Below, in pieces: positions 11,600-55,905 of a DNA stretch of 64,000 nt (the first letter of the stretch is position 1; each line of letters begins with the position of its first letter). The notes beneath the pieces were generated by a model that saw only the letters and a list, made by a program, of their open reading frames with translations, was not told where the DNA came from and ran no database searches. Location of the stretch: positions 2,728,001 through 2,792,000 of the forward strand of contig NZ_AP018664.1 in NCBI RefSeq assembly GCF_003967075.1. Direction: 5' to 3'. This stretch comes from Sphingobium amiense (GTDB taxonomy: Bacteria; Pseudomonadota; Alphaproteobacteria; Sphingomonadales; Sphingomonadaceae). The translations under genes and the position numbers were made by a program.

Positions 11600-11688
11600 C
11601 GTTCGTCCAATCGTAAGAGAGACCTTCGCTCTACACGCTTGCCGCAAGGCTGTCCGGGAAAAGATGGAACCCAGCTTCGAACGCGTTC

Positions 11689-12051: not shown

Positions 12052-12084
12052 ATCTACCCTCGGCTGACGAGGGATGATCGCAAG

Positions 12085-35738: not shown

Positions 35739-36358
35739 GGCGTCCTCCGTTAACTGCGCTCTTCCGCTAGCGCGCAAAAGTTAACGCGGGATCGCCCGGA
35801 TTTTGCGGTCTGGGCGCCATCTTTTCCCATCGGCAGTCCCGCAATTCCATTATTGATGGACCGCAGGATTCCCATTTAAAATCGGGAAACGTCTCGCAGG
35901 CCGGAGCCGGAAGCCGCAGAATAGAGCCATTTTCTCCCGGATGCAGCGCATCTGAAGCGCGGATGATTTCTCGCGTTCAGGATAAATGGGAACCGCAGGG
36001 CTGAAAAGGTAAACCGTACTGCGCCCATGGCCTGCGGAGAAAGGTACGGGGAAAGTACGCATTCACGGTCTGGAATCGATTCTCCACCGTGGAAATCGAA
36101 ACGCAATGGCGCAAATTTGCGGGCTTCTGAGCGCAATTGGTGCGTCAGGGCGATATCTTCAGACTCAGTGGCGGACCTGCTGGGAGCAGGTTCGAACCAT
36201 CTTACCGAAATCCTGAAGGAATGGAATGACGTGCTTCGTCGTTCCAGCCTCGGTCGCGGACAACCCAGCAACGAGAATGAAGGCAAGGATGGAGACGCGC
36301 CGTGCGTCAGCCGTCCGGCTGCCGTGCGGAGGCGCAAAACTGGTTGAGCGGGGGCGGG
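35739..36358. other. Intergenic, structured region upstream of mobC: candidate oriT
   Basis: About 600 bases with several inverted repeats: TTCCCATTTA (35869-35878) and TAAATGGGAA (35983-35992); an imperfect 28-base palindrome at 36064-36091 with CACGGT and ACCGTG outer arms and GAATCGATTC core; a hairpin CCTGCT-GGG-AGCAGG at 36176-36190 adjoining GGTTCGAACC. On the minus strand ATCCTG followed by C occurs at about 35862-35868, like the nick core of MOB-P relaxases. The location before mobC and the relaxase is where an oriT would be expected. No gene is supported here. Confidence 0.45.
36064..36091. repeat. Imperfect 28-base palindrome upstream of mobC
   Basis: Outer arms CACGGT and ACCGTG, inner perfect palindrome GAATCGATTC. 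About 22 of 28 positions are self-complementary. Could be a relaxosome binding site in oriT or an operator of mobC. Confidence 0.6.
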
Positions 36359-36733
36359 ATGGCAAAACGCCCGGCCCCGTTTTCGCTTCGCCTGACATTC
36401 GAGCAGCGTGCCCGGCTGGAAGCCGAGGCGGGCAAGATGTCGCTTGCGGCCTATATCCATTCCCGTCTGTTCGGGGAGGATGATTTAGGACTGGCGGAGC
36501 GCCGCCGCCGTCCACGCAAGCCCGTGGCTGATGAAAAGGCTCTGGCCCAATTGATGGGAATGCTGGGGCAATCCCGTCTTTCCTCGAACCTAAACCAGCT
36601 CGCCAAAGCCGCCAACACGGGAAGTCTGTCTGTCACGCCCGACACGGAAGCGGCGCTGAACGAAGCCGCGACTGCCGTTCACGAGATACGCCGCCTGCTG
36701 ATTGAAGCCCTCAATCTGGAGATAGAGCCATGA
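36359..36733 (+). CDS. mobC: Mobilization accessory protein, MobC type
   Basis: 124 residues from the ATG at 36359. It begins RPAPFSLRLTFEQRARLEAEAG, then MSLAAYIHSRLFG, a ribbon-helix-helix-like N-terminus, followed by a linker and SRLSSNLNQLAKAANTG with the MobC motif (S-N-L-N-Q-L-A-K). MobC binds near oriT and helps the relaxase open the strand. It overlaps the relaxase gene in ATGA. Confidence 0.88.
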   Translation: MAKRPAPFSLRLTFEQRARLEAEAGKMSLAAYIHSRLFGEDDLGLAERRRRPRKPVADEKALAQLMGMLGQSRLSSNLNQLAKAANTGSLSVTPDTEAALNEAATAVHEIRRLLIEALNLEIEP

Positions 36734-38016
36734 TTATTCAGGCATCCAAGCGCGGCGGCGCGATGCAGCTTGGACGGCATCTCCTGAACGGCGAACAGAA
36801 TGAGCTTATCGAGGTGCATGAAGTCAGTGGCTTCATTTCTGACAACCTCATGGGCGCTATGAAGGAATCCTATGCGCTGTCGCTCGGCACGAAATGCCGG
36901 CAACACCTCTTTTCCGTGTCGCTCAATCCGCCTGCGGGTGAGGCGGTGCATGTCGAAACATTCGAACAGGCGTGCAATCTGATCGAACAGCGCCTCGGCC
37001 TTTCCGGTCAGCCGCGCATGATCGTTTTCCATGAGAAGGAAGGTCGCCGCCATGCCCATGCGGTATGGTCGCGCATCGACAGCGAAAAAATGACCGCGAT
37101 CCCGATGCCGTATTTCAAGATGCGGCTGCGCGACGTGTCCAAACAGCTTTACCTCGAACTTGGCTGGCAGATGCCGGATGGTTTCCGTGATGCGCGTCTG
37201 CGCGATCCGCGTAATTTCACGCTGGACCAGTGGCAGGAATCGAAACGCAAAGACCTCGACCCGCGCGAGGTGAAAGCCGCCATCATGGAATGCTGGAAAT
37301 CAGACGTTAACGGCCCGGCCTTTGCTCGTGCGCTGGAAGAGCGCGGCATGTTTCTGGCACAGGGCGGGCGGAAAAACCATGTCGCCGTCACTATTGACGG
37401 GCGCGTGTTCGCCATTGCCCGTGTCACGGGCGAAAAATCAAAAGATGTGCGCGCGCGCCTTGGCGATCCGAAACAGCTTCGCGGTGTTGCCGATGCCGTG
37501 CGCGAAATCGGTGAAACCGTCGCGCCGCGCCTGTCGCGCTATATCTCGGAAGCCAAGCGCATCGCTCATAATGCGATGAAGCCGCTCAATGAGCGCAAGC
37601 AGGACATGAAACAGCAGCACAGCCAAGAACGCAAAATCCTCGCCGATAAACAGCGCGAGCGGAATATCGCGGAACAGCTGGCGCGCTCGGCGCGTGTCCG
37701 CAAAGGGGTTGCTGGCGTGTGGGACATTATGACGGGGCGGTACTTCAAAACGCGGAAGCGGAACGAGATGGAAGCCTTTTTCGGTGTGCAACGTGACAGG
37801 GCGCAGCGGCATGATCTTGTCACTGCCCAGATGAAGGACCGCCAGAACCTTCAGCAGCAAATCAGTCAGGTGCGCGGACTTCACGCCGCGCAGATTCTGG
37901 ACCTTTACCGCGATGCCGCTCAATACCGCGGGATGGTGCGCGGCGATTATCAGCCGGACGGTGCGGATCGTGGACGCGCGAGAAGCCAGCAGCCGCGCGG
38001 CCCTGAGCTGGGATGA
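36730..38016 (+). CDS. Relaxase (mobilization nuclease)
   Basis: 428 residues. The N-terminal 120 residues show a relaxase layout, with the catalytic tyrosine probably near the N-terminal third and a metal-binding H-x-H in EGRRHAHAVW (H108, H110; H101 also near). It is of MOBP/VirD2-type wording. The C-terminal part from residue 280 on is a basic, glutamine-rich coil. It nicks oriT and leads the strand. No T4SS or coupling protein is seen in the window, so the element would be mobilizable, not self-transmissible. Confidence 0.88.
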   Translation: MIIQASKRGGAMQLGRHLLNGEQNELIEVHEVSGFISDNLMGAMKESYALSLGTKCRQHLFSVSLNPPAGEAVHVETFEQACNLIEQRLGLSGQPRMIVFHEKEGRRHAHAVWSRIDSEKMTAIPMPYFKMRLRDVSKQLYLELGWQMPDGFRDARLRDPRNFTLDQWQESKRKDLDPREVKAAIMECWKSDVNGPAFARALEERGMFLAQGGRKNHVAVTIDGRVFAIARVTGEKSKDVRARLGDPKQLRGVADAVREIGETVAPRLSRYISEAKRIAHNAMKPLNERKQDMKQQHSQERKILADKQRERNIAEQLARSARVRKGVAGVWDIMTGRYFKTRKRNEMEAFFGVQRDRAQRHDLVTAQMKDRQNLQQQISQVRGLHAAQILDLYRDAAQYRGMVRGDYQPDGADRGRARSQQPRGPELG

Positions 38017-38036: not shown

Positions 38037-38771
38037 TTACGTTTTTTCCTGACGCTGCTTAATGTCTCCCAACCGTTCGGCATGAGGCTTCATGCGAGAA
38101 AGGACACGCTGTGTCGCCTCGGTGCTCAACCAGTTAGGCCCTGCTTCGGATCGAATATGGCTGACTTTAAGCAGTAGCGCCTCGCGTTGTTGGAACGTCG
38201 CATTAGGCCCATAAATTTCTGTCGCAGCTTCGTTCACAAGCTGCTCGAAAGAGCTTGAATGCCCACCCATGGAATAAATATCTTCCTGCGTGATGGCTGC
38301 TATTTCAAGAATAATTTCATTTTGCTTCCCGCCATATCGGCCCGCTCCGTCATGATAACCGACAATTGCATCTCTATTTTTCTCCATAGCATCCCGAAAA
38401 TATGCGTCGCCATAGAGTTCTCGAAGATTGACAATTACGCTTCCAGAAGGTGGAGAAATGCAGAGGATTACACCTTGATAACCTTGTCCTTCAGGGGGCA
38501 CTCCATTTTTAAAATTCTTTGCGACCTCGATATCGATTGTCCACGATGAAATTTTCTCGGAGAGGCGATCCTCACCGATGAGGTTCCATACGCCGCCTTT
38601 CGGCAGAGCGATTTGCCGAAAGCAGCACAACGCAGAAGTACGAAAACGTACAGGAAGGTGCGCGCAGGCTTCTTTCAGCGTTTGGCCACGACGAATATTT
38701 TGCTTGGCATCGCCGCCGCGCTGCCAATCGCTCACGGCTTGAAGTAAAGATAAGTCAAATTGGTCGCTCAC
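38037..38771 (-). CDS. Putative ADP-ribosyltransferase-like protein, third gene of AbiE unit
   Basis: 244 residues. The order CCFRQIALPKGG (Arg52), then SEKISSWTIDIEVAKNF (Ser75/Ser76, Thr78 and a downstream A-x-x-F), then GGKQNEIILEI (Gln150-x-Glu152) is that of an R-S-E class ADP-ribosyltransferase, with QxE in place of ExE. In the middle VILCISPPSGSVIVNL would be the central strands. The start overlaps the AbiEii stop in ATGA, so all three are translated together. The family match is by motif only. It may be a toxin whose effect is balanced by AbiEi, or an unrelated fold. Confidence 0.5.
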   Translation of the reverse strand: MSDQFDLSLLQAVSDWQRGGDAKQNIRRGQTLKEACAHLPVRFRTSALCCFRQIALPKGGVWNLIGEDRLSEKISSWTIDIEVAKNFKNGVPPEGQGYQGVILCISPPSGSVIVNLRELYGDAYFRDAMEKNRDAIVGYHDGAGRYGGKQNEIILEIAAITQEDIYSMGGHSSSFEQLVNEAATEIYGPNATFQQREALLLKVSHIRSEAGPNWLSTEATQRVLSRMKPHAERLGDIKQRQEKT

Positions 38772-39694
38772 GAAAACAGCACGCGCTCAAGGGCATCTAC
38801 CAACTCGCGCCGTTTGGCAGCGGGAAGCTTGTCCAGATTGCGCTGTTTCCACAGCACGGCGGGCAGGTTCTGCGCTTCCGGGATTCCGAGAAGGCTCCAA
38901 TCCGGCTCGCCGCGTTTGAAACCGACGAGAAAACGCCGATGCTCATCGGGCATGTCCGCAACCATCGCGTCGATGATTTCTTCTCGTGCGGCTTTAAGGT
39001 CGGCAAGTGCAACCGGCTCCTGCGTCATGCCGTCAAAGCCGCGCAGGAATTCCTCTTCAAGAGGCTTGCGCGTCGGGGCCAGAACTTCCGCCATCGGGCG
39101 GTTGTGGCTGATGAGATAGACAAGAAAGGCCCGGCGCAGCTCATCATTGATGCCCTCATGCGCCAGCAGGTCACGCACATCGAAAAGATCGCGCGGATGC
39201 TGGCGGTCGAACGCAGCCACGATCTTGCCTGCATAGAGGTCTGCAAACGACACAACCGAAATCTCGGCGAAACCAAAATCGTCTTCAACGGTGGGCACTA
39301 CGGCGGTCATGACAGGATCATAGACCGTGCCGCGCAGCACGGGCGTCACCTCGATTTTGATCTGCACATCGGCTGCACGAACGACCAGTTTGGTGATGAT
39401 ATTTTCATCCGCCGAGCGTGAGGCATTGACCTTTGCGCCCAGTATTGCCCGTTCGATCCTGTCTTTGATCCGCAGCATGGCAGCGTCAATTGCGGCAAGC
39501 GAGGATTTGCGGTCTTCGACCGGAAGGTAGGTTAGGTCGATGTCCACCGAAAGGCGCGGCATGTCGCGCACGAACAGATTGATCGCCGTGCCGCCCTTGA
39601 GTGCGAAAACTTCCTCCTTCGCCACGAAAGGAATGACGCGGATGAGAAGTGCTACCTGCTGCCGATAAGCGTCGAGGAAAGCCATGACGGTCAA
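38768..39694 (-). CDS. abiEii: AbiEii nucleotidyltransferase toxin
   Basis: 308 residues. KGGTAINLF (residues 33-41) followed by LSVDIDLTY (48-56, with D51-x-D53) are the nucleotidyltransferase motifs of the AbiEii/AbiGii family; the third catalytic acidic is likely in the IKIEV region. AbiEii adds nucleotides to tRNA acceptor ends or other RNA and stops growth. The start overlaps the AbiEi stop in four bases, typical of type IV toxin-antitoxin operons; full length. Confidence 0.9.
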   Translation of the reverse strand: MTVMAFLDAYRQQVALLIRVIPFVAKEEVFALKGGTAINLFVRDMPRLSVDIDLTYLPVEDRKSSLAAIDAAMLRIKDRIERAILGAKVNASRSADENIITKLVVRAADVQIKIEVTPVLRGTVYDPVMTAVVPTVEDDFGFAEISVVSFADLYAGKIVAAFDRQHPRDLFDVRDLLAHEGINDELRRAFLVYLISHNRPMAEVLAPTRKPLEEEFLRGFDGMTQEPVALADLKAAREEIIDAMVADMPDEHRRFLVGFKRGEPDWSLLGIPEAQNLPAVLWKQRNLDKLPAAKRRELVDALERVLFS

Positions 39695-40479
39695 TGACCT
39701 CCCAGATCGGATGGCACGGTGATGTGATAATGCGGGTCGAGCTTGCCGCCTTTGACGAGAACGCGCTTGCCTGATCCAAGATCGATGCGGGTCATATCGA
39801 GACGGCTACGCCATGCATGATTATGGCGGTCGGCAAAAAAGAGAAAGAGCCGCTTCACCTTCACGCTGGCGCACGCCTCAAGAAGCGTTTGCAGGCGGCG
39901 CGGACTCAAATCGCTCATCCCTTCCATCAGTGCATCTACCTGATGGAAACTTTCATGGTCAGGCAATTCGTCGAGCAATTCGAGAACGGCGCGTTCCTTG
40001 CTCGAATAGCGGATTGAAAATGATATCAATCCGCCGCCGCTCAGCATGACGGGGCTTGGCGCTCCTGATTGATCGTCGCCGGGAAAGAGCCGCAGGCTGT
40101 TATGCCAATGAAATTTCACGTCGAGCGGAAGGCTGTCCAGCCATGTTGGCGGACGTTTCGGCCCGTAGAGGTGAACTTCGCGCAAACTGGCGGACAGATA
40201 ATGAGCATAGCCTTGCTGTTCGAGCGCGGTGCGACCGCCAACGGTCAGCGGGAGTTTTAGCAATGTCTGAAGCGATGTTACCGCCTGTTCCCATGTGAGC
40301 GGCGCGCGCGAACGGCGATAGACGCGCCGCGCCGGATTATCGAGCCAGCCGGAGCTGACATACTGGCTTCGCAGCGCCGATGAATAGCCATGCGCTTCCA
40401 GCCATGCGGCATCCACCAGAAGCCCTTCGGGGAGTTCCTGCTGAAGTCGGTTTAATTTACTGTCAGAACGCAAAGCCAT
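39691..40479 (-). CDS. abiEi: AbiEi antitoxin
   Basis: 262 residues. An N-terminal winged-helix part (KLNRLQQELPEGLLVDAAWLEAHGYSSALRSQYVSSGWL) and a C-terminal antitoxin domain with VLELLDELPDHESFHQVDALMEGM are the AbiEi layout. It represses its own promoter and counters the AbiEii toxin. First of a three-gene unit with AbiEii and the ART-like gene. A rho-independent-looking hairpin lies upstream of it on the opposite strand. Confidence 0.88.
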   Translation of the reverse strand: MALRSDSKLNRLQQELPEGLLVDAAWLEAHGYSSALRSQYVSSGWLDNPARRVYRRSRAPLTWEQAVTSLQTLLKLPLTVGGRTALEQQGYAHYLSASLREVHLYGPKRPPTWLDSLPLDVKFHWHNSLRLFPGDDQSGAPSPVMLSGGGLISFSIRYSSKERAVLELLDELPDHESFHQVDALMEGMSDLSPRRLQTLLEACASVKVKRLFLFFADRHNHAWRSRLDMTRIDLGSGKRVLVKGGKLDPHYHITVPSDLGGH

Positions 40480-40582: not shown

Positions 40583-40729
40583 TCAAAAAAGCGAAAGCTG
40601 AGGGCTGGTATCAAGGTACTGCCGCCATTCTGAGGCGTCTGCTTCCTCGTTTATCCATTCGCCGTGCAGATAGCCGTTATTATAGGCGGCAAGGCACGCG
40701 ACATAAATTCTTGGTGTGGTTTCTCCCAT
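40583..40729 (-). pseudogene. ardA: Antirestriction protein ArdA, N-terminal remnant
   Basis: 48 residues from the ATG at 40729: TPRIYVACLAAYNNGYLHG, then E-W-I-N, which is the ArdA N-terminal signature, after which the sequence drifts and stops at QLSLF*. ArdA is normally about 170 residues and mimics DNA to block restriction enzymes. Here only the first domain start is kept. It lies between the AbiE unit and a non-coding stretch. A 9-base hairpin (40575-40583 and 40590-40598) is at its stop. Confidence 0.7.
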
Positions 40730-41290
40730 TATATCTCCCCATCGGGCTTGAGGTTTCCTGAGCCTCGGCTGGCTTATGAACCTCTGCCCTTCGGCGAGAA
40801 TGGGAGTGCAAACGGAGCGAGTGGCTTCGCGGGGGACCGGCTGCACGGAACGCAGTGGAGGAAGCTGGGCGGAAGCCATTCCGAAGTGCGCCAGGGGCAA
40901 GGCCCCAAGCTCTTGCGATAGCGACCGTCACCTTCTGGCCGAGACGACAGGCTCGGTGCGCAATAAGCGCATAGGGCGCGGCCCGAATGGGAAACGCCGG
41001 ATGTTTCTATCCAATCTGAGTTTTACCCGATTGCCTGCGGCAAGAAAGGCAAGCCGCTTGCGGTTTGCCAGTCGCTTGGTCTTCCAAGTTTTCCGGCCTG
41101 ACGTCTGTCCGCCCCGTTGGGCCTTTCCATTGATGTCGTGTATCCGTGTCGATGAACTGGTTTGGTGCAAGGCGTTGTTCAGCCTTCTCCATGTCCATTT
41201 CGATTACGGGCAATGCACCTCATTCACCGCACAGATTCCTGCCTCGTCAACGCGGCCCATCGGGGGCGGCGCAAACAACAGGAGGAATCC
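40730..41290. other. Intergenic, no gene seen
   Basis: About 560 bases between the ArdA remnant and the small gene at 41291. Open frames lack support. The sequence holds the promoter of the ArdA remnant and probably of the small gene; GGAGG before 41291 is the only site I trust. Confidence 0.35.
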
Positions 41291-41464
41291 ATGTTCAAAA
41301 TGATCAAAGACGATCTGGCGAAGAAAACCGATGCGCAGCTCGCAGCTCTTTTCCAGCAGGCCAGCCTCGGCCTCAGTGCTGCGCAATCGCACGTCGCATC
41401 GGCGCAATCGCATCTCGCGATGATCCGTGCCGAAATCGCCATTCGCGGCCCGTCTCCGCGATGA
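41291..41464 (+). CDS. Small hypothetical protein
   Basis: 57 residues from the ATG at 41291 with GGAGG nine bases upstream. The sequence has heptad-like AQSHVASAQSHLAM, a helical repeat, and acidic and basic residues in the first helix. Short proteins of this look accompany plasmids and integrative elements. Ends two bases before a strong hairpin. Function unknown. Confidence 0.6.
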   Translation: MFKMIKDDLAKKTDAQLAALFQQASLGLSAAQSHVASAQSHLAMIRAEIAIRGPSPR

Positions 41465-41470
41465 CGGTGA

Positions 41471-41497
41471 AAGGGGCGCTATGCGCGCCCCTTTTTG
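41471..41497 (+). terminator. Intrinsic terminator
   Basis: AAGGGGCGC (41471-41479) and GCGCCCCTT (41485-41493) form a nine-base stem with a five-base loop followed by TTTTG. It ends the 57-residue gene and overlaps the last codons of the convergent gene. Confidence 0.8.
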
Positions 41498-41697
41498 TCG
41501 TCCTTGGTATCGGCAATGCGCATCACCACGCGGCCATTCAATGGCAAGGCATTCAGGCAGAGCGTGAAGCCCTTGCGGTCGCGGATTTCAAAGGCGACAC
41601 CTATGTCGGTCCAGCGGGCGTTTTCGCCATCGCCGTTGACGGTGTAGAGCCTGTGGCTCGGTTGATTGCCGGGACGGTTCTGGTTGATGTCGGTCAT
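41479..41697 (-). CDS. Small conserved hypothetical protein of mobile elements
   Basis: 72 residues from the ATG at 41697, which has AAGGAGG in the correct position. The sequence has NQPSHRLYTVNGDGENARWTDIG and FEIRDRKGFTLCLNALPLNGRVVMR, a compact beta-rich protein often seen on plasmids and integrative elements. Function unknown. Confidence 0.65.
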   Translation of the reverse strand: MTDINQNRPGNQPSHRLYTVNGDGENARWTDIGVAFEIRDRKGFTLCLNALPLNGRVVMRIADTKDDKKGRA

Positions 41698-41966
41698 GAT
41701 ATCCTCCTTCATGTCGTCCGAAGGACCATTCCCTCGGTTCGTGGGGAGAAGGACGAGCGGACGGCGAAGTCGCCGATCAAAGGCTGGCGCAGCCACCAGC
41801 GGCGCGGAGCTGCACGAAGGAAGCGAGCGGCCTTGAACGGCGGCGCGTTCGCGGAAAACCCCATGAAGAGAACCGGGAGAATGGTCTACCGAACTGATTA
41901 GGAAGATAGGCCTGCCAACGCAGAGCGCGCTCCTCGCGGTTTTGTCCCATAATTGAAGGCGGGGCG
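41698..41966. other. Intergenic, nothing recognised
   Basis: About 270 bases between the small protein and the end of the caspase-helicase operon. Confidence 0.35.
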
Positions 41967-43172
41967 CTACATATAGAAAGCCAATTGATCGAGCGTCAGC
42001 AATGCCTGCAATGCTCTGGCCATGGTGTATTCGTTGCCTGCCACTCTGCCATGGCTGACAGCATGGCGTGACCCTGCTGTTCCAACATCGTCTTTTTTGA
42101 AATCGGCATAGGTGTAATCCTTGAGATACTTCCCAAATTCTACCGGGAAAAACAGGGTGTCCTTGCCGCCTGCTCGAAGCTCGGCCTGTTCGATCATGAA
42201 ATCGGGGAGCTTATTGGAACGATAGGGTCTTTCGCCATGCACCTGATAATAGGCATCCGACATCACGCCCTCGATCTCGCTCAGGATGATTTTAATAACG
42301 GTGACGGGTTCGGAGTTTTTGAATGCGTTGATCGCTGGTCGCAGGATCGCTTCCCGTTCATTTAGGTGTGCCCGCTCCATCCAGCGCGAGAACATTCGCT
42401 CCAGCCGGGTCTCATCGAACGCGGATATGAGATTTTGCTCCGCCTCATTCAGCGCGAACTCCGCTTCGATCATGCCCAGAAGAGTCCTGATTTCGGCGAT
42501 ACCCAATTCAAGAAATGGGAACCAGCCAACTCCGACCATGCTTTTGAAGGTCGGCTCGTGAGCTAGAGACGCATAGAGGTCGGCGTACCGCATGCGCCGG
42601 AACAGCGTGCCAAGCGCCCGCTTGGCCTCTTCAATCACCAAGTCCCCGTCCGGATTGAAATCGAAATACAAGGCGAAGCGCCATCCTTCGCGGATGATGC
42701 AAAGAATGCGGTCTTTCGGTCCAACCTCTACAAGCGGGAACCACAACCCGGTGATGTCAGCGATATCATTCTCGAAAAGCACCGTGCCAGCCGCCATGGG
42801 ACCGGGCCGCTTGAGGGCGCTGTAGGTACACATCGCCGCTTTATCGACCCACAGCTCCCCAGTGTCATCAGGGCGTAGCACGAGGAAAACGGTCTGCGCC
42901 CGACTCAAGCTTGGATATTCCCCAACGGCGTTGGCTGCATGTTCAATAGCGCCAGCGATGTTGGCGATGATCTTCTGGAAGAGGTCTTGGTCGGAGGTAA
43001 GCGCCATCCTTGTCCATATCTGGATTTTCTGGCCACCTTGCGCCGCTTCCGCGCTTACTCCAGCCATGTTCACGTTCTTGAGGAGAATTGGATTGCCAAG
43101 ATTACTTACGAGGTCGCCAGCCTTTGGCGCGGGACTGTCATCGGTCTCCAAATCGTTCATTTTTCGGCTCAT
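41967..43172 (-). CDS. Unknown protein with HEPN-like C-terminal motif, fourth gene of caspase-helicase operon
   Basis: 401 residues. No signal or membrane segment. The C-terminus holds SRHAVSHGRVAGNEYTMARAL, an R-H-x-x-x-H-G block of the kind seen at the end of HEPN-like proteins (an R-x4-6-H active site), followed by a helix. The N-terminal part is beta and helix mixed with FLVLRPDD and WVDKAAMCTYSALKR. The gene follows the nuclease-like gene by only 12 bases. It may be an RNase-type effector or a structural partner; this is inference. Confidence 0.5.
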   Translation of the reverse strand: MSRKMNDLETDDSPAPKAGDLVSNLGNPILLKNVNMAGVSAEAAQGGQKIQIWTRMALTSDQDLFQKIIANIAGAIEHAANAVGEYPSLSRAQTVFLVLRPDDTGELWVDKAAMCTYSALKRPGPMAAGTVLFENDIADITGLWFPLVEVGPKDRILCIIREGWRFALYFDFNPDGDLVIEEAKRALGTLFRRMRYADLYASLAHEPTFKSMVGVGWFPFLELGIAEIRTLLGMIEAEFALNEAEQNLISAFDETRLERMFSRWMERAHLNEREAILRPAINAFKNSEPVTVIKIILSEIEGVMSDAYYQVHGERPYRSNKLPDFMIEQAELRAGGKDTLFFPVEFGKYLKDYTYADFKKDDVGTAGSRHAVSHGRVAGNEYTMARALQALLTLDQLAFYM

Positions 43173-43184
43173 GGTTCATTCTGC

Positions 43185-44441
43185 TTAATGAGCATGAGGA
43201 ACATCAAACGCCATGACCGTAATGACCATTTCGCGATTAGGATCGTCGCGGTGGGTAAAACGATATTGCCAGCTTGTTTCCGTCTTTTGTCGAATGAGCT
43301 TCTTGCAATTGGGATGATCTTCGGTAGTCTCCTTTATCTTTGCTAAGACCGCCGAAAAGTCCTTGTTGCGATTAAAGACGACGACGGCCGCTTTCGTGTC
43401 GCGCCATGATAGGTAGCCGAGAAGCTGGTCTATCGTTTCGGAATAATTCTTTTCACCGCGCCAAAATTTACATTCCGCGATAAAGATATTTCGGCCTTGG
43501 TCCTTAATGAGGATATCGGTTTTGCCCTCATAATTGAATGTCTCGCCAGTCGCCTGTCCCTGATACTGGCCATTGAGCTGCATCAGGAAGTGAGTGCGTA
43601 TTGCTTCCTCGTCGGCATGAGCGAATGCGGAAGGGCTATATTCCATCACGCGGACCATGTTTGACATGATTTGCAGAATGTTCTCGTATTGCTCATCCGC
43701 CAGCGCTGGCTCCGGCTTGTAGGGGGCACTGCTGGCTGGTGGCTGCACAGGTGGCAGCTTTTTCCGGACTTGCGGGCTGGCGTATGTACTACCCGCATTG
43801 TCGCGGGGTTTCATCGCAAAACCCAGACTGGCAACAAGGTTTCGATCTCTAAGTAACTTTTCCTTTCGACCTGAAAGACGTGTCTGAACACGGCCAGCTA
43901 TGCTGGCATTGAACGTGGAAGCGGAGGCTCGCAGGTTCGTAAGATTTGCTTCTATTTCGCCAATTGTGCGATCGATTTGATTCCTGACCTGTTCGCCTGC
44001 AAGATTCGTCCCTTGGATTGAAAGTATCAGATTGTTACCGCGCACCTGTCCCCGTGGCGGCGACATAGAGAACGTTGTAGGCTGGACCCGAAAAAACTGC
44101 CCATCCCCTGAAAATGGAACTTCAACTTCGATTTGGGTCCCCGCGATATGGAACGGTCGGCTTCTATCGCGGATGTATCGCCCATGATCCTGACTGACAT
44201 CAATATTCACTTCCCTTTGATCGGCGGTGATATTTTCAGTGTGAAGTTCTGGGACTTCCATAGAATATTTAGAGTTAAAATACTCTATGAGAGCATCATC
44301 TGACGTATTGAGAAGCCTTTCAGCATGGTAGGCGTCAATCTCATTCTCAAGAGCGGCCTGCTGCCCACGCTCGACGCTAAACCAATCTACATTGCAAAAA
44401 AGGAGATCGGTGTTTTCCCGTGCAAGACCAAAAGACATCAT
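43185..44441 (-). CDS. PD-(D/E)XK nuclease-like protein, third gene of caspase-helicase operon
   Basis: About 418 residues from the ATG at 44441 with AAAGGGA upstream; a TTG at 44459 would add six. The C-terminal domain has EGKTDILIKDQGRNIFIAECKFW with Asp315, Glu329 and Lys331 (numbered from the 44459 start): the D...E-x-K triad of restriction-type nucleases. An upstream helix with EEAIRTHFLMQL may supply the first acidic residue. The N-terminal half (1-270) is unlike anything I know. The gene is on the same strand as the caspase-helicase gene, 56 bases away. Confidence 0.65.
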   Translation of the reverse strand: MMSFGLARENTDLLFCNVDWFSVERGQQAALENEIDAYHAERLLNTSDDALIEYFNSKYSMEVPELHTENITADQREVNIDVSQDHGRYIRDRSRPFHIAGTQIEVEVPFSGDGQFFRVQPTTFSMSPPRGQVRGNNLILSIQGTNLAGEQVRNQIDRTIGEIEANLTNLRASASTFNASIAGRVQTRLSGRKEKLLRDRNLVASLGFAMKPRDNAGSTYASPQVRKKLPPVQPPASSAPYKPEPALADEQYENILQIMSNMVRVMEYSPSAFAHADEEAIRTHFLMQLNGQYQGQATGETFNYEGKTDILIKDQGRNIFIAECKFWRGEKNYSETIDQLLGYLSWRDTKAAVVVFNRNKDFSAVLAKIKETTEDHPNCKKLIRQKTETSWQYRFTHRDDPNREMVITVMAFDVPHAH

Positions 44442-44515
44442 GTTCCCTTTATCTGCCAATCATCCAAGTGCTGGCTTTATTTTTCCATGGCAGAAAATCA
44501 CGCAATTTTTTTCTA

Positions 44516-47500
44516 TCACGCCGCGCCCGCTATAATTGGTTGGAACGTTCGATGAAGCGCATCGCCGCGCCGTCCAATGATCGCGGTTAACTGATCAGGA
44601 TTGAGCAATGCGATGGCATCTTGGTTGCGATGCCCAGCATGATAGAGCGCAAGAATTTCGCCACGTGTCAGCGGAAATGCGAGTGCAGAGATGGCAAGCG
44701 CGTCAGCCGGAAGCCCAAGGTCAAGCCTGGTCATCAGTAGGGCTGCCGCATCCTGATCCTCGGCCCGACCAAGCACGATGGCAGAAATACGTAATGCCGA
44801 ATCTAAGAGAAAACGCGAGCCATCCGCATATCCTCTGATGTCGCCATGCCCCACGCGCGAGAACGCATTCGACGAATATCGGGCCTCGATGTCGGTAGTG
44901 GGTTCGCCTGCTATCCAGTCGCTCACGATAAGGGCGCGTTTGCAACGTGCATAGAATGCCACATCGCTTTCTGCACGATGGGCCAATGAGCGCCCAATGT
45001 TGAAGCCGAACCGCCCACTAGCCTCTTGTTGCCAGCGCGGCTCACCATTCTTGCCGCTCTGTGGTGTATAATCTTCGTCGCGCTCCGGCAGACACTCGAC
45101 CAGTACCAAGAGGTTTTCCAGCGATGCGTCAGTCGGGTCGATGCGACCCAGCAGCTCAACTAAACGCATTGCAGATTCCAGACTTAGAGGCGATTCACCG
45201 CAGGCCCGTCCGAGCATTGTGAGCCGGAGGCTATCGCCTTCTTCGTCAACTAGCCCGTCCGCAATCATGCGGTTCAGAAGTCGCTCCAACGAGTCAGCCA
45301 TATGATCGCGCCAAGCTGGATTTTGGATTGCGGCCAGATATCCGCCGTAAGTGTTTGCGATAAGATCAATGACCGCTTCACGCGGAACGTCACGAACTTG
45401 TGCAAGCAGGCGAATAACCCACGTGCCTGGCTGATTGGGGTTGAAAGACGACGTAATCGCCTCCGGCTGGCCTTGGACATATCTTCTAAAAAGTTGGTTC
45501 CGCTCCATCGGCGTTTCGGCGAGCAGGATGGATTTTCCTTCAGCCTCAAAGCCTAGTCGGCCCGCGCGCCCAGCCATGTTCTTGTACTGCGCTACTGTAT
45601 AGGGGATGCGTTCGCGGCCTGGGAAATCTGTCTCGGCGATGATGACCGTTGAGGCCGGAGTGTTGACGCCAGCCGCAACAGTGCTGGTCGCGACAAGAAC
45701 CTTGATATTGCCGTTCAGGCTACGAAAACCTCGCTCGACGGCAACGCGTTCGTCACGTGTCAGGTCGCCGTTATGGAAGGCTACTCCGCCCGCAAGGGCG
45801 CGGCGTAGGCTGTCCGACATTGCAGACGGATCGCCTTCTGGTAAGGCGTCCAGAACATCCAACGCGGGTTCCAAGCCAAGTTCGTTGGCAAGATATTCGG
45901 CGCAGCCGCTTGCAGGACCGCGCGCATTTCGGAACACAATGACCTTTTCGCCCGCTTCCACAAGGTGCTGGACGAGCGGAACAATCACGTCTTGTGAGGA
46001 TGGCCTTGTCCTACGTTGCTGAACCCGATGGCGTTCGATCATCTGAATCGTTTCAGCACCGTTCGGCCCCATTTTGGTGAATGCTCCGGTGCGGTCCATC
46101 ACTCCTTCAACCAAGGGAACAGGTCGCTCGTCGGTTTGAAGCAGGGCGCAATCAAGCCAGCGATCAAAACTGTTGGCATGGCCAATAACCGCACTCAATG
46201 TGATGAGTTGCGGACATACGCCACGCTGGCGCGCGCTAACCAAGCTGGTAAGTAGAAGCTCTACTACCATGCCACGGCCGGGTTCAGTGATGAACTGCGC
46301 CTCATCAAGAACTACAAGGCCAATCTGATTAAGAATGTGCGACGAAGAAACCGAAAGGCTCAAAAATTTCTCGTAAGTGAAGAAGGCGATGTCGTATTTA
46401 CCACGCAGAACTTCGCCTACTTGATCTTGCCAATCGCCACTGCATCGCGCGATCCGTAGGCCAAGCCGCTCTCCATAGAGTGCAGAAAAATCTTCAAACT
46501 TCTCATTCACGAGCGCTTTATAGGGTAATAAGAAGACAGCTTTTCTGCCATCTGCGATGGCCTTTAACGCGGCCAGTTCGCCCACGAAGGTTTTGCCTGC
46601 GCTTGTAGGCGCAATAACCATCAGCGAGTTGCCGCCCAGCACGCCTCTTTCGTTGACTGCGGCGATTTGCAAAGCATTCAAGCCAGCGGGGAAACGTTCA
46701 TGCCAAGCGTCAATTGCTTCTTGCGGAATGCCTACTTGGCTCAATTCCCGGATATCACCGGTAGTCTGAAGAGCATTGTACTCAGGGAAGGCTGCTCTAT
46801 AGCGTTCACCCACACGGCCCGGCGGTAGCATAAAGTCGCCTTGGGTCTGACCGAACATGGTAGGCGATTGCTCGTATCCAAAGCGTCCGGCATTGGCTCC
46901 GACTAGACGAGTGACGCGATCAACCAACTCAAGAACGCCGAGCGGTGCATCCGCCGCGAGCAGTGTGTCAATGACGGCTTTGGTGAACAAACCGTGCCGG
47001 GTTTGCGGATCTTCGAGCGCCTCCTGCTGAGCCGACGAAGCTGCGAAAAGGATGCGGCCTTGTCCGGCAACATCAACCAAGGGAAAGGCGATCGCATTTC
47101 TTGGCACGAGTCCAACGTCGAGGACACGGGCTGGCGCGCCGCCGCTGAAACAGCAATCAAGCAACAGGATAACAGCGCGCGCCCTAGTATCGCGAAATCG
47201 TTGCGCCAATTCGTCCATACCGAACGTCGTGCCAGGAAGATTATCTACGTCAGTATCGTGGAGAACAAGCCGATGGTCGGGCGTCCCGTGACCTGCGAAG
47301 CCGAGGATCACGACGTCCGTTTCGTCGGCTGATGCTAAGGTTGCATCAAGCGCTGCGCGCATTGCCTCCAGCGTGGCATCCTCGTTGGTGATGAGTTGCG
47401 CATCGAGACCATCGATGGAATCCGACATGATCGCCCAAAGTGCGGTTGCGTCACGCGCGGCACCGGTGAGGTCTCCCACATATGGGTCGCGATGCCGGTC

Positions 47501-47533
47501 AATTCCGAAGAAGGCTGCGCGCAACATGCTCAA
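44516..47533 (-). CDS. Caspase-like peptidase fused to a Ski2-like superfamily 2 helicase
   Basis: 1005 residues. Residues 1-235 are a caspase-type peptidase: His82 in LGFAGHG and Cys128 in LLLDCCFSGG. Residues 285-700 are a helicase: Walker A APTSAGKT (308-315), DEAQ (410-413), S-A (motif III, LITLSAVI), and GRAGRLG (655-661, motif VI), in the order of Ski2/Hel308-like enzymes. The C-terminus (700-1005) is helical and unknown. Its start overlaps the stop of the upstream YodC-like gene in ATGA. The fusion suggests that nucleic-acid sensing by the helicase activates proteolysis. I know of no named system with just this gene order. Confidence 0.85.
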   Translation of the reverse strand: MSMLRAAFFGIDRHRDPYVGDLTGAARDATALWAIMSDSIDGLDAQLITNEDATLEAMRAALDATLASADETDVVILGFAGHGTPDHRLVLHDTDVDNLPGTTFGMDELAQRFRDTRARAVILLLDCCFSGGAPARVLDVGLVPRNAIAFPLVDVAGQGRILFAASSAQQEALEDPQTRHGLFTKAVIDTLLAADAPLGVLELVDRVTRLVGANAGRFGYEQSPTMFGQTQGDFMLPPGRVGERYRAAFPEYNALQTTGDIRELSQVGIPQEAIDAWHERFPAGLNALQIAAVNERGVLGGNSLMVIAPTSAGKTFVGELAALKAIADGRKAVFLLPYKALVNEKFEDFSALYGERLGLRIARCSGDWQDQVGEVLRGKYDIAFFTYEKFLSLSVSSSHILNQIGLVVLDEAQFITEPGRGMVVELLLTSLVSARQRGVCPQLITLSAVIGHANSFDRWLDCALLQTDERPVPLVEGVMDRTGAFTKMGPNGAETIQMIERHRVQQRRTRPSSQDVIVPLVQHLVEAGEKVIVFRNARGPASGCAEYLANELGLEPALDVLDALPEGDPSAMSDSLRRALAGGVAFHNGDLTRDERVAVERGFRSLNGNIKVLVATSTVAAGVNTPASTVIIAETDFPGRERIPYTVAQYKNMAGRAGRLGFEAEGKSILLAETPMERNQLFRRYVQGQPEAITSSFNPNQPGTWVIRLLAQVRDVPREAVIDLIANTYGGYLAAIQNPAWRDHMADSLERLLNRMIADGLVDEEGDSLRLTMLGRACGESPLSLESAMRLVELLGRIDPTDASLENLLVLVECLPERDEDYTPQSGKNGEPRWQQEASGRFGFNIGRSLAHRAESDVAFYARCKRALIVSDWIAGEPTTDIEARYSSNAFSRVGHGDIRGYADGSRFLLDSALRISAIVLGRAEDQDAAALLMTRLDLGLPADALAISALAFPLTRGEILALYHAGHRNQDAIALLNPDQLTAIIGRRGDALHRTFQPIIAGAA

Positions 47534-47754
47534 GCCCTCGAAACGCTGAAGCTACCGCCATATGACGGAGACCGCTTTTCCAAAGAGGATGGTCGGAACG
47601 TGGCCTCTTGTCTGGCTTGGCGGTTTCCGATCTTCTCAAACCAGACGCACCAAACGGTGTCCTCACCGGTCATTGCAGCCGTGCCTACCTGCTCGACAGT
47701 CATTAGAGGGCCGCCTGATTTTAGTCGAACTACATCGCCAGGCTCGAAACTCAT
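47530..47754 (-). CDS. YodC-like small protein (DUF2158)
   Basis: 74 residues from the ATG at 47754. FEPGDVVRLKSGGPLMTVEQVG, then WCVWFEKIGNRQARQEATFRPSSLE is the DUF2158/YodC pattern, a small SH3-like barrel. In other genomes such proteins lie ahead of defence or stress genes. It is the first gene of the operon, joined to the caspase-helicase gene by a four-base overlap. Its role is unknown, perhaps a regulator or target binder. Confidence 0.8.
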   Translation of the reverse strand: MSFEPGDVVRLKSGGPLMTVEQVGTAAMTGEDTVWCVWFEKIGNRQARQEATFRPSSLEKRSPSYGGSFSVSRA

Positions 47755-48190
47755 AATTTCCTCCAGGTTCGCGCTTTGTTCAATTGTTATCCAAAACCGA
47801 ATGTGCAGGCTAGTGACCTTAGGCGATAGTCCCCAATTTTTGCGACTGCCGTCCAGAGAACGGATGCTCTGACGCCATCCAATCGGCGCGGGATTGGTCG
47901 TCTCGATGGGCGAAACCATCGTGCAGGGTCCACGGGCGGCACACGCCATGGGCATGGGTCAAGGGAGCAGGAACGCTCCTTGCCGCGCCGGAGGCGGTTG
48001 GGTTCCAAGGGGCAGGCACGCCCGTTTGGTCGATGGGGCAAGAGGGGCGAAAGCATCTCTGTTTGGGGAGAGCGGAAGTCTCCCCGATGGCGTGTCATCC
48101 GGCTCAATGCCGGTGATGCGCCAATGGCCAGAGGGATGCAACGGGAGAGCGCAGCGTCTCCCTTGCCAAGATGCCTGGTAGTACCAGGAC
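47755..48190. other. Intergenic, left of IS21 B
   Basis: About 430 bases without a supported gene; the promoter of the defence operon must lie here on the minus strand. The stretch ends exactly at the left end of the second IS21 element. Confidence 0.4.
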
Positions 48191-48302
48191 TGTTGATTTC
48201 CACTGAGAGTTGACCCGGGAGGGGCATAAGTTTCCACTGAGAAGTGACCCATGTTTTGACTTCCCTCTGGCTGATTGGTCGGAGGATTCAGGAGTGATCG
48301 AC

Positions 48303-49829
48303 ATGGCGTTATTGAGTGTAATCCGGCGCTGGCATTTCCGGCAGCAGGTTCCGATCCGGGAGATCGAGCGGCGCACTGGTTTGTCGCGCAACACGATCCG
48401 CAAGTACCTGCGGGCGGACACGGTAGAGCCGCAGTTCAAGGTTCCCGAGCGGCCGAGCAAGCTGGACCCGTATGCGGAGAAGCTGTCAGGCTGGCTGCGG
48501 ATCGAGGCTGGCAAGTCGCGCAAGCAGCGGCGCACGGCGAAGCAGATGCACGCCGATCTCGTGGTCCTGGGCTATAACGGCTCATACGGGCGCGTTGCGG
48601 CCTTCGTGCGGACCTGGAAGGCCGATCGTCAGCGCGAGCAGCAGACCAGTGGTCGCGGCACGTTCGTGCCGCTGGTCTTTGCGCCGGGCGAGGCGTTCCA
48701 GTTCGACTGGAGCGAGGACTGGGCCTTGCTGGGCGGCAAGCAGACCAAGCTGCAGGTGGCGCACACCAAGCTGTCACACAGCCGCGCCTTCACCGTCCGA
48801 GCTTATCTGCTCCAGACTCACGAGATGCTGTTCGACGCTCTGACCCAGGCCTTCCGGGTGCTGGGCGGCGTGCCGCAGCGCGGGATTTTCGACAACATGA
48901 AGACCGCGGTTGATCGGATCGGCACGGGCAAGGCTCGGCAGGTCAACGCGCGCTTTGCCGCGATGGCCAGTCATTACCTGTTCGAGCCCGAGTTCTGTAA
49001 CCCGGCTTCCGGTTGGGAGAAGGGACAGGTCGAGAAGAACGTGCAGGATGCACGGCGCCGGCTGTGGCAACCCATGCCCAGCTTCCCCGACATCGATGCG
49101 CTCAACGTCTGGCTCGAGGAGCAGTGCATCGCGCAATGGGGTCAGATCCAGCATGGCGTCCTGCCCGGCACCATCGCCGATGTGCATGCCGAAGAGGTCG
49201 CCAGTCTGATGCCGCTGGGCCGGCCCTTCGATGGCTTCGTCGAGCACACCAAGCGGGTATCGCCGACCTGCCTGGTCTCCTTCGAGCGCAATCGCTACAG
49301 CGTGCCAGCCTCTTTCGCCAACCGGCCGGTGAGCCTGCGGGTCTACCCTGACCGGCTCGTCATCGCCGCCGAGGGCCAGGTCCTGTGCGAGCATGGCCGG
49401 ATCATCGAGCGGTCCCATGACCAGCCAGGGCGGACCATCTATGACTGGCGGCATTACCTGGCGGTGATCCAGCGCAAGCCTGGCGCCCTGCGCAACGGCG
49501 CGCCCTTTGCCGAGATGCCCGAGGCCTTCCGGCAGTTGCAGGGCTTCCTGCTCAAGCGCCCCGGCGGTGACCGGGAGATGGTGGAGATCCTCGCGCTGGT
49601 CCTGCAACATGATGAGCAGGCGGTGCTCTGTTCCGTCGAACTGGCGCTGGAAGCTGGCGTGCCGACCAAGACCCATATCCTCAACATCCTCCACCGGCTG
49701 CTCGACGGCAAGCCAACCAGCATCGCCGCCATCGATACCCCACAGGCGTTGAGCCTGCGCCGGGAGCCGAAGGCCAATGTCGCGCGCTATGATACGCTGC
49801 GCGGGAAGGATCTGCGTCATGCGTCATGA
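48303..49829 (+). CDS. istA: IstA, transposase of IS21 element B
   Basis: 508 residues from the ATG at 48303 after CAGGAG; the upstream frame is not used. Helix-turn-helix [22 protein letters not shown], catalytic FQFDWSEDW and [12 protein letters not shown], and [14 protein letters not shown] as in element A. Ends [14 protein letters not shown] and overlaps istB by 11 bases. Confidence 0.93.
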
Positions 49830-50589
49830 TCCCGCCAGCGCCGCCGTCATGGTCATGCTGCGCTCCCTCAAGATGTACGGCATGGCCCAGGCCGTCGCTG
49901 ACCTCATCGAGCAGGGGGCACCCGCCTTCGATGCGGCCATCCCCATCCTCTCCCAGTTGCTCAAGGCCGAGATGGCCGAGCGCGAGGTTCGGTCCATCGC
50001 CTACCAGATCAAGGCGGCCCGGTTCCCGGCCTACAAGGACCTGGCCGGCTTCGACTTCGCTTCCAGCGAGGTCAACGAAGCCATGGTCCGCCAGTTGCAT
50101 CGCGGCGAGTTTATCGATGGCGCCCATAACGTCGTCCTGATCGGTGGCCCCGGCACCGGCAAGACGCACGTCGCCACCGCACTTGGCGTCCAGGCGGTCG
50201 AGCATCACCGCAAGAAGGTCCGCTTCTTCGCCACCGTCGACCTGGTCAACGCGCTGGAACAGGAAAAGGCCATGAACAAGGCAGGCCAACTGTCCGAACG
50301 GCTCCTGCGCCTCGACCTCGTCATCCTCGACGAGCTCGGATACTTGCCGTTCAGCCCGTCAGGCGGCGCGCTGCTGTTCCACCTGCTGAGCAAGCTTTAC
50401 GAGCGCACCAGCGTCGTCATCACCACCAACCTCAGCTTCAGCGAATGGGCTGGCGTGTTCGGTGATGCCAAGATGACAACGGCTCTGCTGGACCGGCTCA
50501 CCCACCACTGTCACATCCTCGAGACCGGCAATGACAGCTTTCGGTTCAGGGCCAGCGCCGCGGACCCCAAATCACGAAAGGAAAAATAA
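49819..50589 (+). CDS. istB: IstB, ATP-binding helper protein of IS21 element B
   Basis: 256 residues from the ATG at 49819. Walker [18 protein letters not shown], Walker [18 protein letters not shown], then [15 protein letters not shown]. Same function as the IstB of element A. Complete. Confidence 0.93.
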
Positions 50590-54002: not shown

Positions 54003-54305
54003 ATGAAACCTCTGACGCCAGACGAAATGGAAGAATTGCGCTCATCAATGAGCCAGCTTCATCTGCCGGATACCGAAAAAGACGAAATAATCCGCTATCT
54101 GGATTCGATAGCAACATCTTTCGTCGATCAGGCTTTTGGATTTCATCCGCTTCAATTGTCCCTTTCTGCACGGGCAAACTATGCTTTCAAAGGGCATAGC
54201 CGCCATGCTAGTCTGACAGCGACCGCGAATGCGGAAATTGTTGACCTCCGGGAGGAGGGCGCGCTCAACATCGACGACACCCCGAAGGGGTATTTTGCGC
54301 CATGA
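54003..54305 (+). CDS. Small protein ahead of the recombinase
   Basis: 100 residues from the ATG at 54003, beginning MKPLTPDEMEELRSSMSQLH and ending in GYFAP, with a helix-rich first half and IRYLDSIATSFVDQAF. It overlaps the recombinase gene in ATGA. Such small acidic ORFs often precede serine recombinases; possibly a recombination directionality factor or a regulator, but no motif proves it. Confidence 0.55.
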   Translation: MKPLTPDEMEELRSSMSQLHLPDTEKDEIIRYLDSIATSFVDQAFGFHPLQLSLSARANYAFKGHSRHASLTATANAEIVDLREEGALNIDDTPKGYFAP

Positions 54306-55855
54306 GAAAAACCGATCAAAAAGCTGTTGTTTATTGCCGGGTTAGCACCAAAAAGCAGGCCCGGGAGGGTAATGGTCTTGCCTCACAGGAAACTCGTTGC
54401 CGGGAATATGCAGGCCATCGCAATCATGAAGTGATTGCCGTCTTCATGGACGACGTGTCGGGCAAGCTCGCCAAGCGTCCCGGCTTCGATCAGATGATTG
54501 CGTTCATGCGGAAGAACCGCAAGCTGGGCATCGTCGTCATCGTCGATGACCCCAGCCGTCTCGCGCGCGAAGTGCGTACTCATTTCGATTTGAAAGACCT
54601 GATCGTCCTTGCCGGAGGAACGATTGAATCGCCGAACCACGATTTCGACGATGACCCCGACAGCGTTTTTCTAGAAACTTTGACCGCCACGCTCGCCCAG
54701 CATCAGCGGTTGAAGAATGGTCAGCAGGCGACATCGCGGATGCGCGCGCGGATGCAGTCGGGTTTCTACGTCCACAATCCAACGCTCGGCTATGTGTACG
54801 AGAAAAGCCCGGCGGGCGGGAGCGTGCTGGTAAGGCGAGAGCCGATTGCCTCGATCATCGCCGAGGGTCTTGAGGCCTTCGCGAGCGGGCGTTTGGGTAC
54901 GCAGGCGGAATTCAAACGCTTCCTTGAAGCGCATCCCGCGTTCCCCAAAACACGCCACGGGCATGTTACCAATCAACAGGCCAAGCGCATCCTGACACAC
55001 CCGCTTTACTGCGGACTGATTCAGAGCAAGAAGTGGGACGTGTCACCGCGCAAGGGTCATCACCCCGCACTGATTTCTGTCGAAACCTTCGAGAAGAACC
55101 AAGAACGCTTGTTCGGGAAGCCGATGGCCCCGGCGCGGGCCGACGTCCACATCGACTTCCCCATGCGCGGGGTCGTGACCTGCGGCTGCTGCCATCACCC
55201 GATGACGAGCAACTACAGTACAGGGCGGAGCGGCAAGCGTTTCCCATACTATGTCTGCCGCCATCGCGGTTGTGAGAAATTCGGCAAGTCCGTCCGGCGT
55301 GAAATCGTCGAGGACGCTTTTGAGTCGCTGCTTGTGAAGCTCAAGCCAAGCGATGCGCTCTTCGACCTATTCTCCAAGCTGTTTCGGAAGCGTTGGGATG
55401 AGGCGAGCGGCAAAGCGAAGGAGATGAAGGCCACGCTTCGAATCCAAGCCGCTGCGGCGGACAAAAAGATTGCTGGCCTGCTCGACCGTATCATGGCTTC
55501 TGAAAGCGCAACGGTCATCAAACGCTACGAGAGCGAGATTGAGATTCTGGAGCGCGACAAACTCGTGATCGCGGAAAAAACGGCGAAGTGCGGGACCGCT
55601 CTACCAGACTACGACGCGACTTTTCGAACCGCTTTTGATTTTATCGGAAACCCTTGGAATCTTTGGAAGAATGGGACCTTTGAGGACAAGAGAATCGTTC
55701 TAAAACTGACTTTGGACACCCCAGTCGTTTATGACTGGAATGAGGGTGTTCGAACCCCTGAATTATCCTTCCCCTTCAAGGTGTTGAAGGCTGTCGGCGA
55801 TCAAAATGGTGAATTGGCGGAGCGGGAGGGATTCGAACCCTCGATACGCTTTTGA
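54302..55855 (+). CDS. Large serine recombinase (integrase)
   Basis: 517 residues. Catalytic domain with the nucleophile Ser15 in YCRVSTKKQAREGNG, then SRLAREVR and IESPNHDF. A recombinase domain from about 150-270 and a zinc ribbon at about 293-345 (CGCCHHPMTSNY ... YYVCRHRGCEK) follow; the C-terminus is a coiled coil (360-430). Large serine recombinases integrate between att sites with a two-base core. The last codons run into the 3' end of the tRNA-Ser gene (complement), so the stop is inside the tRNA gene. The element was therefore probably inserted there. Confidence 0.92.
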   Translation: MRKTDQKAVVYCRVSTKKQAREGNGLASQETRCREYAGHRNHEVIAVFMDDVSGKLAKRPGFDQMIAFMRKNRKLGIVVIVDDPSRLAREVRTHFDLKDLIVLAGGTIESPNHDFDDDPDSVFLETLTATLAQHQRLKNGQQATSRMRARMQSGFYVHNPTLGYVYEKSPAGGSVLVRREPIASIIAEGLEAFASGRLGTQAEFKRFLEAHPAFPKTRHGHVTNQQAKRILTHPLYCGLIQSKKWDVSPRKGHHPALISVETFEKNQERLFGKPMAPARADVHIDFPMRGVVTCGCCHHPMTSNYSTGRSGKRFPYYVCRHRGCEKFGKSVRREIVEDAFESLLVKLKPSDALFDLFSKLFRKRWDEASGKAKEMKATLRIQAAAADKKIAGLLDRIMASESATVIKRYESEIEILERDKLVIAEKTAKCGTALPDYDATFRTAFDFIGNPWNLWKNGTFEDKRIVLKLTLDTPVVYDWNEGVRTPELSFPFKVLKAVGDQNGELAEREGFEPSIRF

Positions 55856-55905
55856 CGTATACTCACTTTCCAGGCGAGCGCCTTCGACCACTCGGCCACC
55901 GCTCC
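55815..55905 (-). tRNA. tRNA-Ser (GGA)
   Basis: Complement of 55818-55905, with CCA encoded at 55815-55817. The acceptor arms GGAGCGG and CCGCTCC pair (7 bp), with anticodon loop CTGGAAA giving anticodon GGA, a long variable arm as is usual for serine tRNA, and T-loop GGTTCGAATCC. Its 3' end is overlapped by the recombinase stop codon. Confidence 0.93.

Follow-up and report, generated by a model that had tools for sequence, protein, structure and literature searches.

In the Hachiman defence system damaged DNA is detected by the helicase HamB, which then releases the nuclease HamA (PMC12278908), and in the HamMAB variant a protease-HamA fusion activates a pro-nuclease (PMC12799240). Nuclease-protease pairs are common to Hachiman, AVAST and Lamassu. 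Among EACC1-caspase systems about 50 fused domain types are named, with no helicase among those listed in the portion of the source on which this statement draws (PMC7159879). Here we describe a stretch of 64,000 nucleotides from Sphingobium amiense (RefSeq assembly GCF_003967075.1, contig NZ_AP018664.1, positions 2,728,001 to 2,792,000), hereafter the window, which encodes a caspase and a helicase in one polypeptide; this fusion is labelled CasHel, and its residues are numbered by the form of 1005 amino acids (aa). CasHel appears to be an antiviral system of bacteria that has not been described before. Our best explanation, to which we give a probability of about one half, is that CasHel, with a DUF2158 protein as an accessory in this clade, is a mobile and self-contained candidate anti-phage system, and that two further genes, here called N and C, are independent defence-type neighbours within a genomic island.

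CasHel resembles Hachiman in having a Ski2-like helicase as the proposed DNA sensor, which HamMAB couples to a protease; however, the protease of HamMAB is trypsin-like and fused to HamA, whereas in CasHel a caspase is fused to the helicase. Membership of Hachiman was rejected, no HamA/DUF1837 match being found in PADLOC at E <= 1 for eight window proteins (for CasHel, among the best 25 of 43 matches). The window is similar to Canu in that a caspase-family protease stands in a locus that also has a nuclease gene, but in Canu the caspase carries an Ig-like fold and its target for activation is a pro-nuclease of the MBL fold (PMC12799240). Canu membership was likewise rejected: the caspase of CasHel is followed by a Hel308-type helicase that extends to residue 989, the Pfam hits include no Ig domain, and in place of an MBL-fold pro-nuclease partner the nearby nuclease is of the PD-(D/E)XK type and is not conserved with CasHel. 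EACC1-caspase systems share with CasHel the layout of a small gene on the 5' side and, after it, a protein whose caspase is N-terminal and joined to a longer C-terminal portion, but the 5' protein here matches DUF2158 and the caspase, for which NF047832 (caspase, EACC1-associated type) is the nearest named model (E 3e-27), scores 95.5 bits, under the NCBIfam cut-off of 140. Hel308, HelQ and Pol theta correspond to CasHel in helicase sequence and fold over residues 263-989 but are repair helicases without a caspase.

A caspase fused to a Hel308-type helicase

An earlier note on this DNA had read four frames on one strand, in the order YodC-like protein, caspase-helicase fusion, N and C, as a candidate four-gene defence system. 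The frames, all on the minus strand, and their order were confirmed, as was the fusion itself: in addition to the caspase domain, CasHel matches the Pfam families DEAD (E 1.9e-21) and Helicase_C (E 2e-11). The caspase match (56.1 bits against a cut-off of 21.4), taken with the His/Cys dyad, places the N-terminal domain in Peptidase_C14. The catalytic residues that the note had named are kept almost without exception across relatives, His82 in 40 of 40 and Cys128 in 39 of 40, and the helicase motifs (Walker Lys314, Asp410-Glu411, Arg656 and Arg659) are each present in 40 of 40, as is Cys127. Both the dyad and the motifs are retained in relatives of 49-89% identity and in others with as little as 39%. 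The family is large, with at least 1665 homologues at E <= 1e-3 out of at most 7997 candidates, and 119 of the 120 that were listed carry both the Pfam caspase and helicase domains; hence, the fusion itself is conserved. The homologues are mostly named 'DEAD/DEAH box helicase' in databases, no model in Pfam, NCBIfam or PADLOC covers the whole fusion, and full-text searches of the open-access literature directed at a caspase-helicase fusion yielded no description of it.

The helicase had been described as Ski2-like, which is correct, and Hachiman had been named as a system with such helicases; within this group it is Hel308/Pol theta-like and not close to HamB. A profile of 36 CasHel relatives searched against PDB returned archaeal Ski2/Hel308 structures at E values of 2.4e-83 to 8.6e-74, Pol theta at 7.6e-53 and HamB at 2.4e-23. 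The HamB models of PADLOC match stretches of the helicase core only (best E 2.1e-33), and identity with HamB was rejected. CasHel is also not an orthologue of Hel308, since the NCBIfam model for that protein gives 254 bits against a cut-off of 1200. An AlphaFold2 model of CasHel has a mean predicted local distance difference test (pLDDT) score of 84.6 and a predicted template modelling score (pTM) of 0.70, with a poorly modelled loop beyond Cys128 (residues 130-150), and aligns with Hel308 at a template modelling (TM) score of 0.78 by target length. A second structural search with the model had helicases only among its listed matches.

The protein is probably slightly shorter than the 1005 residues first proposed. 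A start codon lies 2-6 bases past the DUF2158 stop in 16 of 16 rows (ATG in 15, TTG in L015), so CasHel is likely to begin at the ATG at 47527 and to comprise 1003 aa, the 1005-aa form depending on an alternative TTG at 47533. The ATGA overlap reported for the first two genes is absent; between the TGA that ends DUF2158 and the ATG of CasHel stand the two bases GC, and only the alternative TTG overlaps the stop.

Relatives with both domains occur in Pseudomonadota, Cyanobacteriota, Verrucomicrobiota, Bacteroidota and Nitrospirota; a Marinimicrobia contig (L024) has a helicase-only piece, truncated by the contig end. CasHel is rare: within the class it was found in one of 289 genomes and within the family in one of 219, the window's own genome both times, and in another order in two of 347, one of them the centre genome. 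A tree of 29 rows places the window inside a clade of 16 rows (clade A; support 100/100), although the rows are not independent, the CasHel of L004 and L026 being identical and those of L010 and L011 nearly so. Clade A mixes Acetobacteraceae, Sphingomonadaceae, Sphingobiaceae, Sphingopyxidaceae, Rhizobiaceae, Phyllobacteriaceae, Caulobacteraceae and Paracoccaceae, as horizontal transfer predicts, and some CasHel copies are plasmid-borne. A single-protein scan of viral contigs with CasHel returned none; an alignment-based scan of such contigs returned 38 helicase relatives, with both domains only in L062.

The companions DUF2158, N and C

Locus counts refer to 35 fetched loci with both CasHel domains, which become 31 other distinct loci when the window's own (L001, L105) and duplicates (L051, L052) are removed. 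Their flanks extend to 8 kb at most and some contigs are short, so that a genome-wide search weighs more than the locus scan.

The gene called YodC-like in the earlier note is a DUF2158 gene by its Pfam match (Table 1). It lies directly 5' of CasHel at 15 of the 31 loci, with a remnant at one more (L021), and on the tree in all 16 rows of clade A and in none of the 13 remaining rows. Its frame is open in the window and in 13 of 16 relatives and is broken in the others by a frameshift (L003), a premature stop (L010) and an internal deletion (L021), and the CasHel frame is open in each; for L021, whose sequence was of insufficient length for the tree, this holds up to the contig end. Hence, the DUF2158 protein is unlikely to be an essential inhibitor of the caspase, a role that was rejected, although two of the three relatives are metagenome assemblies, where assembly error is possible. 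Since some clades do without DUF2158 and losing it seems to be tolerated, it is more likely to be a helper than an antidote.

In 15 of 16 rows the last two residues of the DUF2158 protein are R-A, R-G or R-R. Orthocaspases cleave after basic residues (PMC6426788), so this tail may be readable by the caspase. The idea is weakened by the overlap of the tail codons with the probable ribosome-binding site of CasHel (GAGG or GGAG in 10 of the 15 rows with arginine, none in five). Three solitary DUF2158 proteins are without the tail. The 5' protein of EACC1-caspase systems has one transmembrane helix; in the DUF2158 protein no hydrophobic helix was seen by eye.

Gene N matches the PADLOC family PDC-S54 over its full length (positions 4-408 of 410, E 9.6e-168); PDC-S54 is a candidate family only, and was not found under that name in the open-access literature. 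The gene probably starts at the ATG at 44441 or 44438, given that close relatives have about 417 aa, which leaves some 75 bases between CasHel and N; the 12-base gap between N and C was correctly given. The nuclease residues named in the note (Asp315, Glu329 and Lys331) are present in 31 of 31 members, and between the two ordered domains the linker at residues 220-251 has pLDDT values below 50 and conserved prolines. Foldseek returned no match to N at E <= 0.001. Aminoglycoside adenylyltransferase was rejected as an identity for N, the Pfam match (E 0.0021) being below cut-off and seen in two of 30 members, without support from the fold.

Gene C has 809 homologues at E <= 1e-3 and no significant Pfam or PDB profile match. 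The R-H-x-x-x-H-G block proposed for it stands in part: Arg369, His374 and Gly375 occur in 34 of 34 members, but His370 in 30, and the core is R-x4-H-G. The HEPN RNase motif is R-x4-6-H, which Arg369 and His374 fit in all 34 members, and from this motif we infer that C is HEPN-like. ApeA was considered and rejected: the source name of one homologue, P0059, begins 'ApeA N-terminal domain', but none of the 34 members matches an ApeA or a HEPN model in Pfam (E <= 0.1).

Neither gene travels with CasHel, and the four-gene system is not upheld. The nuclease half of N and gene C are each found at 0 of the 31 loci, and genome-wide the full N and C are each found in 0 of 22 other CasHel genomes, one of which has a match to the N-terminal half elsewhere; the same queries recover both genes in the window's own genome. 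N occurs at 15 other loci (one beside a retron, one beside a restriction-modification subunit), never with C or CasHel, and C at four, never with N or CasHel. The earlier note had proposed to check the conservation of the neighbourhood, with recurrence of the helicase gene without its partners counting against a system, and CasHel does recur without N and C. N and C were therefore rejected as obligatory partners and are probably units separate from CasHel. In the 3-row plasmid clade, however, the N-terminal half of N lies directly 5' of CasHel in two rows, and among 25 listed plasmid records matching N three match this half only, two of them directly 5' of CasHel, so that a link between N-type proteins and CasHel may exist in some lineages. 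Proteins of about 200 aa in L033 and L034 match the N-terminal half of N weakly (2e-11 and 8e-8); their neighbours, judged by eye, include a ubiG-type methyltransferase and a DUF1178-like gene, and a housekeeping origin of the domain is possible.

Neighbouring genes and the island

Several loci have CasHel close to defence genes. A complete Lamassu A-C-B lies directly 5' in L017 (1848-11009), QatA begins 152 bases downstream in L008, Mokosh A and B are nearby in L003, and AbiE-type pairs are found in L017, L020, L025, L027 and the window; by annotation, restriction-modification and SAVED genes occur in L028 and TIR and caspase genes in L031 and L035. In this respect the earlier note is borne out: the fusion is both conserved and mobile, frequently has defence genes nearby and has no model covering it in the three libraries searched. 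In an 8-row clade, AbiE-type pairs (L017, L025, L027) or a pair of 366 and 298 aa (L016, L019, L053) lie close by. The latter pair is directly 5' of CasHel in hosts that include Acetobacteraceae and Verrucomicrobiota, and its 298-aa protein appears nucleotidyltransferase-like by eye, without a Pfam match. An SMC-like family (71% identity) is encoded directly 5' of CasHel in L025 (4955-7933) and ahead of gene C, on the same strand, in L061 (545-7203), with pieces of the same gene in L016. In L006, co-directional genes of 417 and 432 aa (10395-12975) start 15 bases past CasHel; tblastn shows them to be unrelated to N and C, and Pfam gives no match for them.

Within the window, a recombinase gene overlapping tRNA-Ser and a lowered G+C content at about 37-56 kb suggest an island inserted at a tRNA gene. 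A second copy of the tRNA-Ser 3' end was not present within the window and the other end of the island was not found. A simple scan of positions 41000-48400 gave no promoter (3.7 expected by chance) and 12 terminator-like sites (7.3 expected), neither of which settles the transcription unit.

Table 1. Positions of CasHel, its companions and other island features, counted from the first letter of the window
Feature	Position	Strand	Remarks
DUF2158 (YodC-like) protein, 74 aa	47530..47754	-	PF09926, E 2.5e-12, 46.8 bits against a cut-off of 22.3 (longer frame scanned)
CasHel, caspase-Hel308 fusion	44516..47527	-	Pfam caspase, DEAD, Helicase_C; Hel308-like at 263-989
CasHel caspase (Peptidase_C14) domain, residues ~21-228	46850..47473	-	PF00656, E 5.7e-15
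CasHel Hel308/Pol theta-type superfamily 2 (SF2) helicase, residues ~263-989	44567..46747	-	profile and fold
CasHel His82 codon	47290-47288		
CasHel Cys128 codon	47152-47150		
CasHel Walker Lys314 codon	46594-46592		
Gene N	43185..44441	-	N-terminal domain and long helix, disordered linker 220-251, C-terminal PD-(D/E)XK
Gene N, C-terminal PD-(D/E)XK nuclease domain	~43185-43709	-	
Gene C, 401 aa	41967..43172	-	without known domain; R369-x4-H374-G375, codons ~42068-42048
MobC/NikA-like gene and MobA/VirD2-type relaxase	36302-38016		same island; MobC/NikA below cut-off, relaxase E 2.9e-12
AbiEi-AbiEii pair, then overlapping 244-aa gene	38037-40479		244-aa gene without Pfam, PADLOC or NCBIfam match
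ArdA fragment	40583-40900		ArdA positions 1-32 of 155 only
IS21-type istA-istB	48210-50589		directly upstream of DUF2158
Large serine recombinase, overlapping tRNA-Ser(gga) at 55815-55905	54302-55905		Resolvase E 2e-24, Recombinase, zinc ribbon

Proposed function and competing explanations

For CasHel as a self-contained anti-phage system we infer the following course, from DNA sensing through coupling and protease activity to growth arrest, with phage as the target. The Hel308-type helicase would bind branched, nicked or single-stranded DNA that arises from phage replication or from damage to the host genome; ATP-driven movement on this DNA would rearrange or cluster CasHel and so release the fused caspase, which would cut proteins (CasHel itself or some factor of host or phage origin) and halt growth before phage release. 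DUF2158 would aid sensing or assembly and would not be an essential antidote. A more specific version, which we put forward tentatively, is that of a sensor and executioner in one polypeptide, in which the Hel308/Pol theta-type helicase gates the caspase, the 5' partners (DUF2158, N-type N-terminal domain, nucleotidyltransferase-like pair, SMC) are swapped by clade, and the R-A/R-G/R-R tail of DUF2158 might be read by the caspase as a tag resembling a substrate, which would signal assembly or indicate the first cut.

Several observations weigh against an autonomous anti-phage CasHel. DUF2158 is absent from 15 of the 31 loci, making the pair clade-specific, and a single explanation covering all clades would need to dispense with it. 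A single-sequence phmmer search of PDB with the caspase part alone gave no solved relative; as the structure searches gave no caspase match, the caspase fold is assigned from profile matches and the motif. On the two plasmids L031 and L035 a distant CasHel has a 201-aa homologue of the N-terminal half of N immediately on its 5' side, which the independence of N and CasHel does not explain. Of 10 neighbours from seven clade-A loci, three match PADLOC at 1e-15 and seven do not, and the enrichment of CasHel near defence genes is an impression and not a statistic, there being no control set. Furthermore, Hel308-type helicases are repair enzymes, so that a repair role is possible. CasHel could on this account serve mobile elements in stress or DNA repair, acting in replication-fork repair under protease-controlled turnover and not against viruses; Hel308 and Pol theta are indeed its nearest helicases, and there are copies on plasmids and one on a contig classed as viral (L062). 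Such a role is nevertheless unlikely in view of the patchy spread, the horizontal transfer, the adjacency to several named defence systems and the nearly invariant caspase dyad.

The diversity of 5' genes could also mean that CasHel is a modular protease-sensor, recruited by differing neighbours (Lamassu SMC, AbiE-type pairs, N-type proteins, DUF2158) with a partner that varies by clade. Repeated transfer of protease-nuclease pairs has been published (PMC12799240), and the gene directly 5' is DUF2158 in clade A, the 366- and 298-aa pair in L016, L019 and L053, LmuB-type in L017 and L022, SMC-like in L025 and the N-terminal half of N in L031 and L035. This we consider doubtful, given that the sister rows L017 and L025 differ in their 5' genes and that the nearest large downstream genes are on the opposite strand in several clade-A loci, which suggests an autonomous unit. 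Quite unlikely is a locally assembled caspase-activated nuclease, in which CasHel would sense phage DNA and cut the linker of N to free its PD-(D/E)XK domain, with C adding RNA cleavage. The co-directional genes and short gaps, the disordered, proline-conserving linker between ordered domains and the plasmid records with the N-terminal half of N 5' of CasHel (two of three) speak in its favour, and the Canu caspase activates a co-encoded nuclease (PMC12799240). That nuclease is, however, of the MBL fold and not PD-(D/E)XK, and the full N accompanies CasHel at none of the other loci or genomes searched, is without CasHel and C at its 15 other loci and is absent from all four loci with C.

Bacterial helicase sensors and caspase effectors are each already known in antiviral defence, and surveys relying on PADLOC-type models may miss CasHel, which no model matches over its whole length. 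If our explanation is true, CasHel would unite DNA-damage sensing and proteolytic execution in one chain, and would provide a simple model in which to study the control of a caspase by DNA structure.

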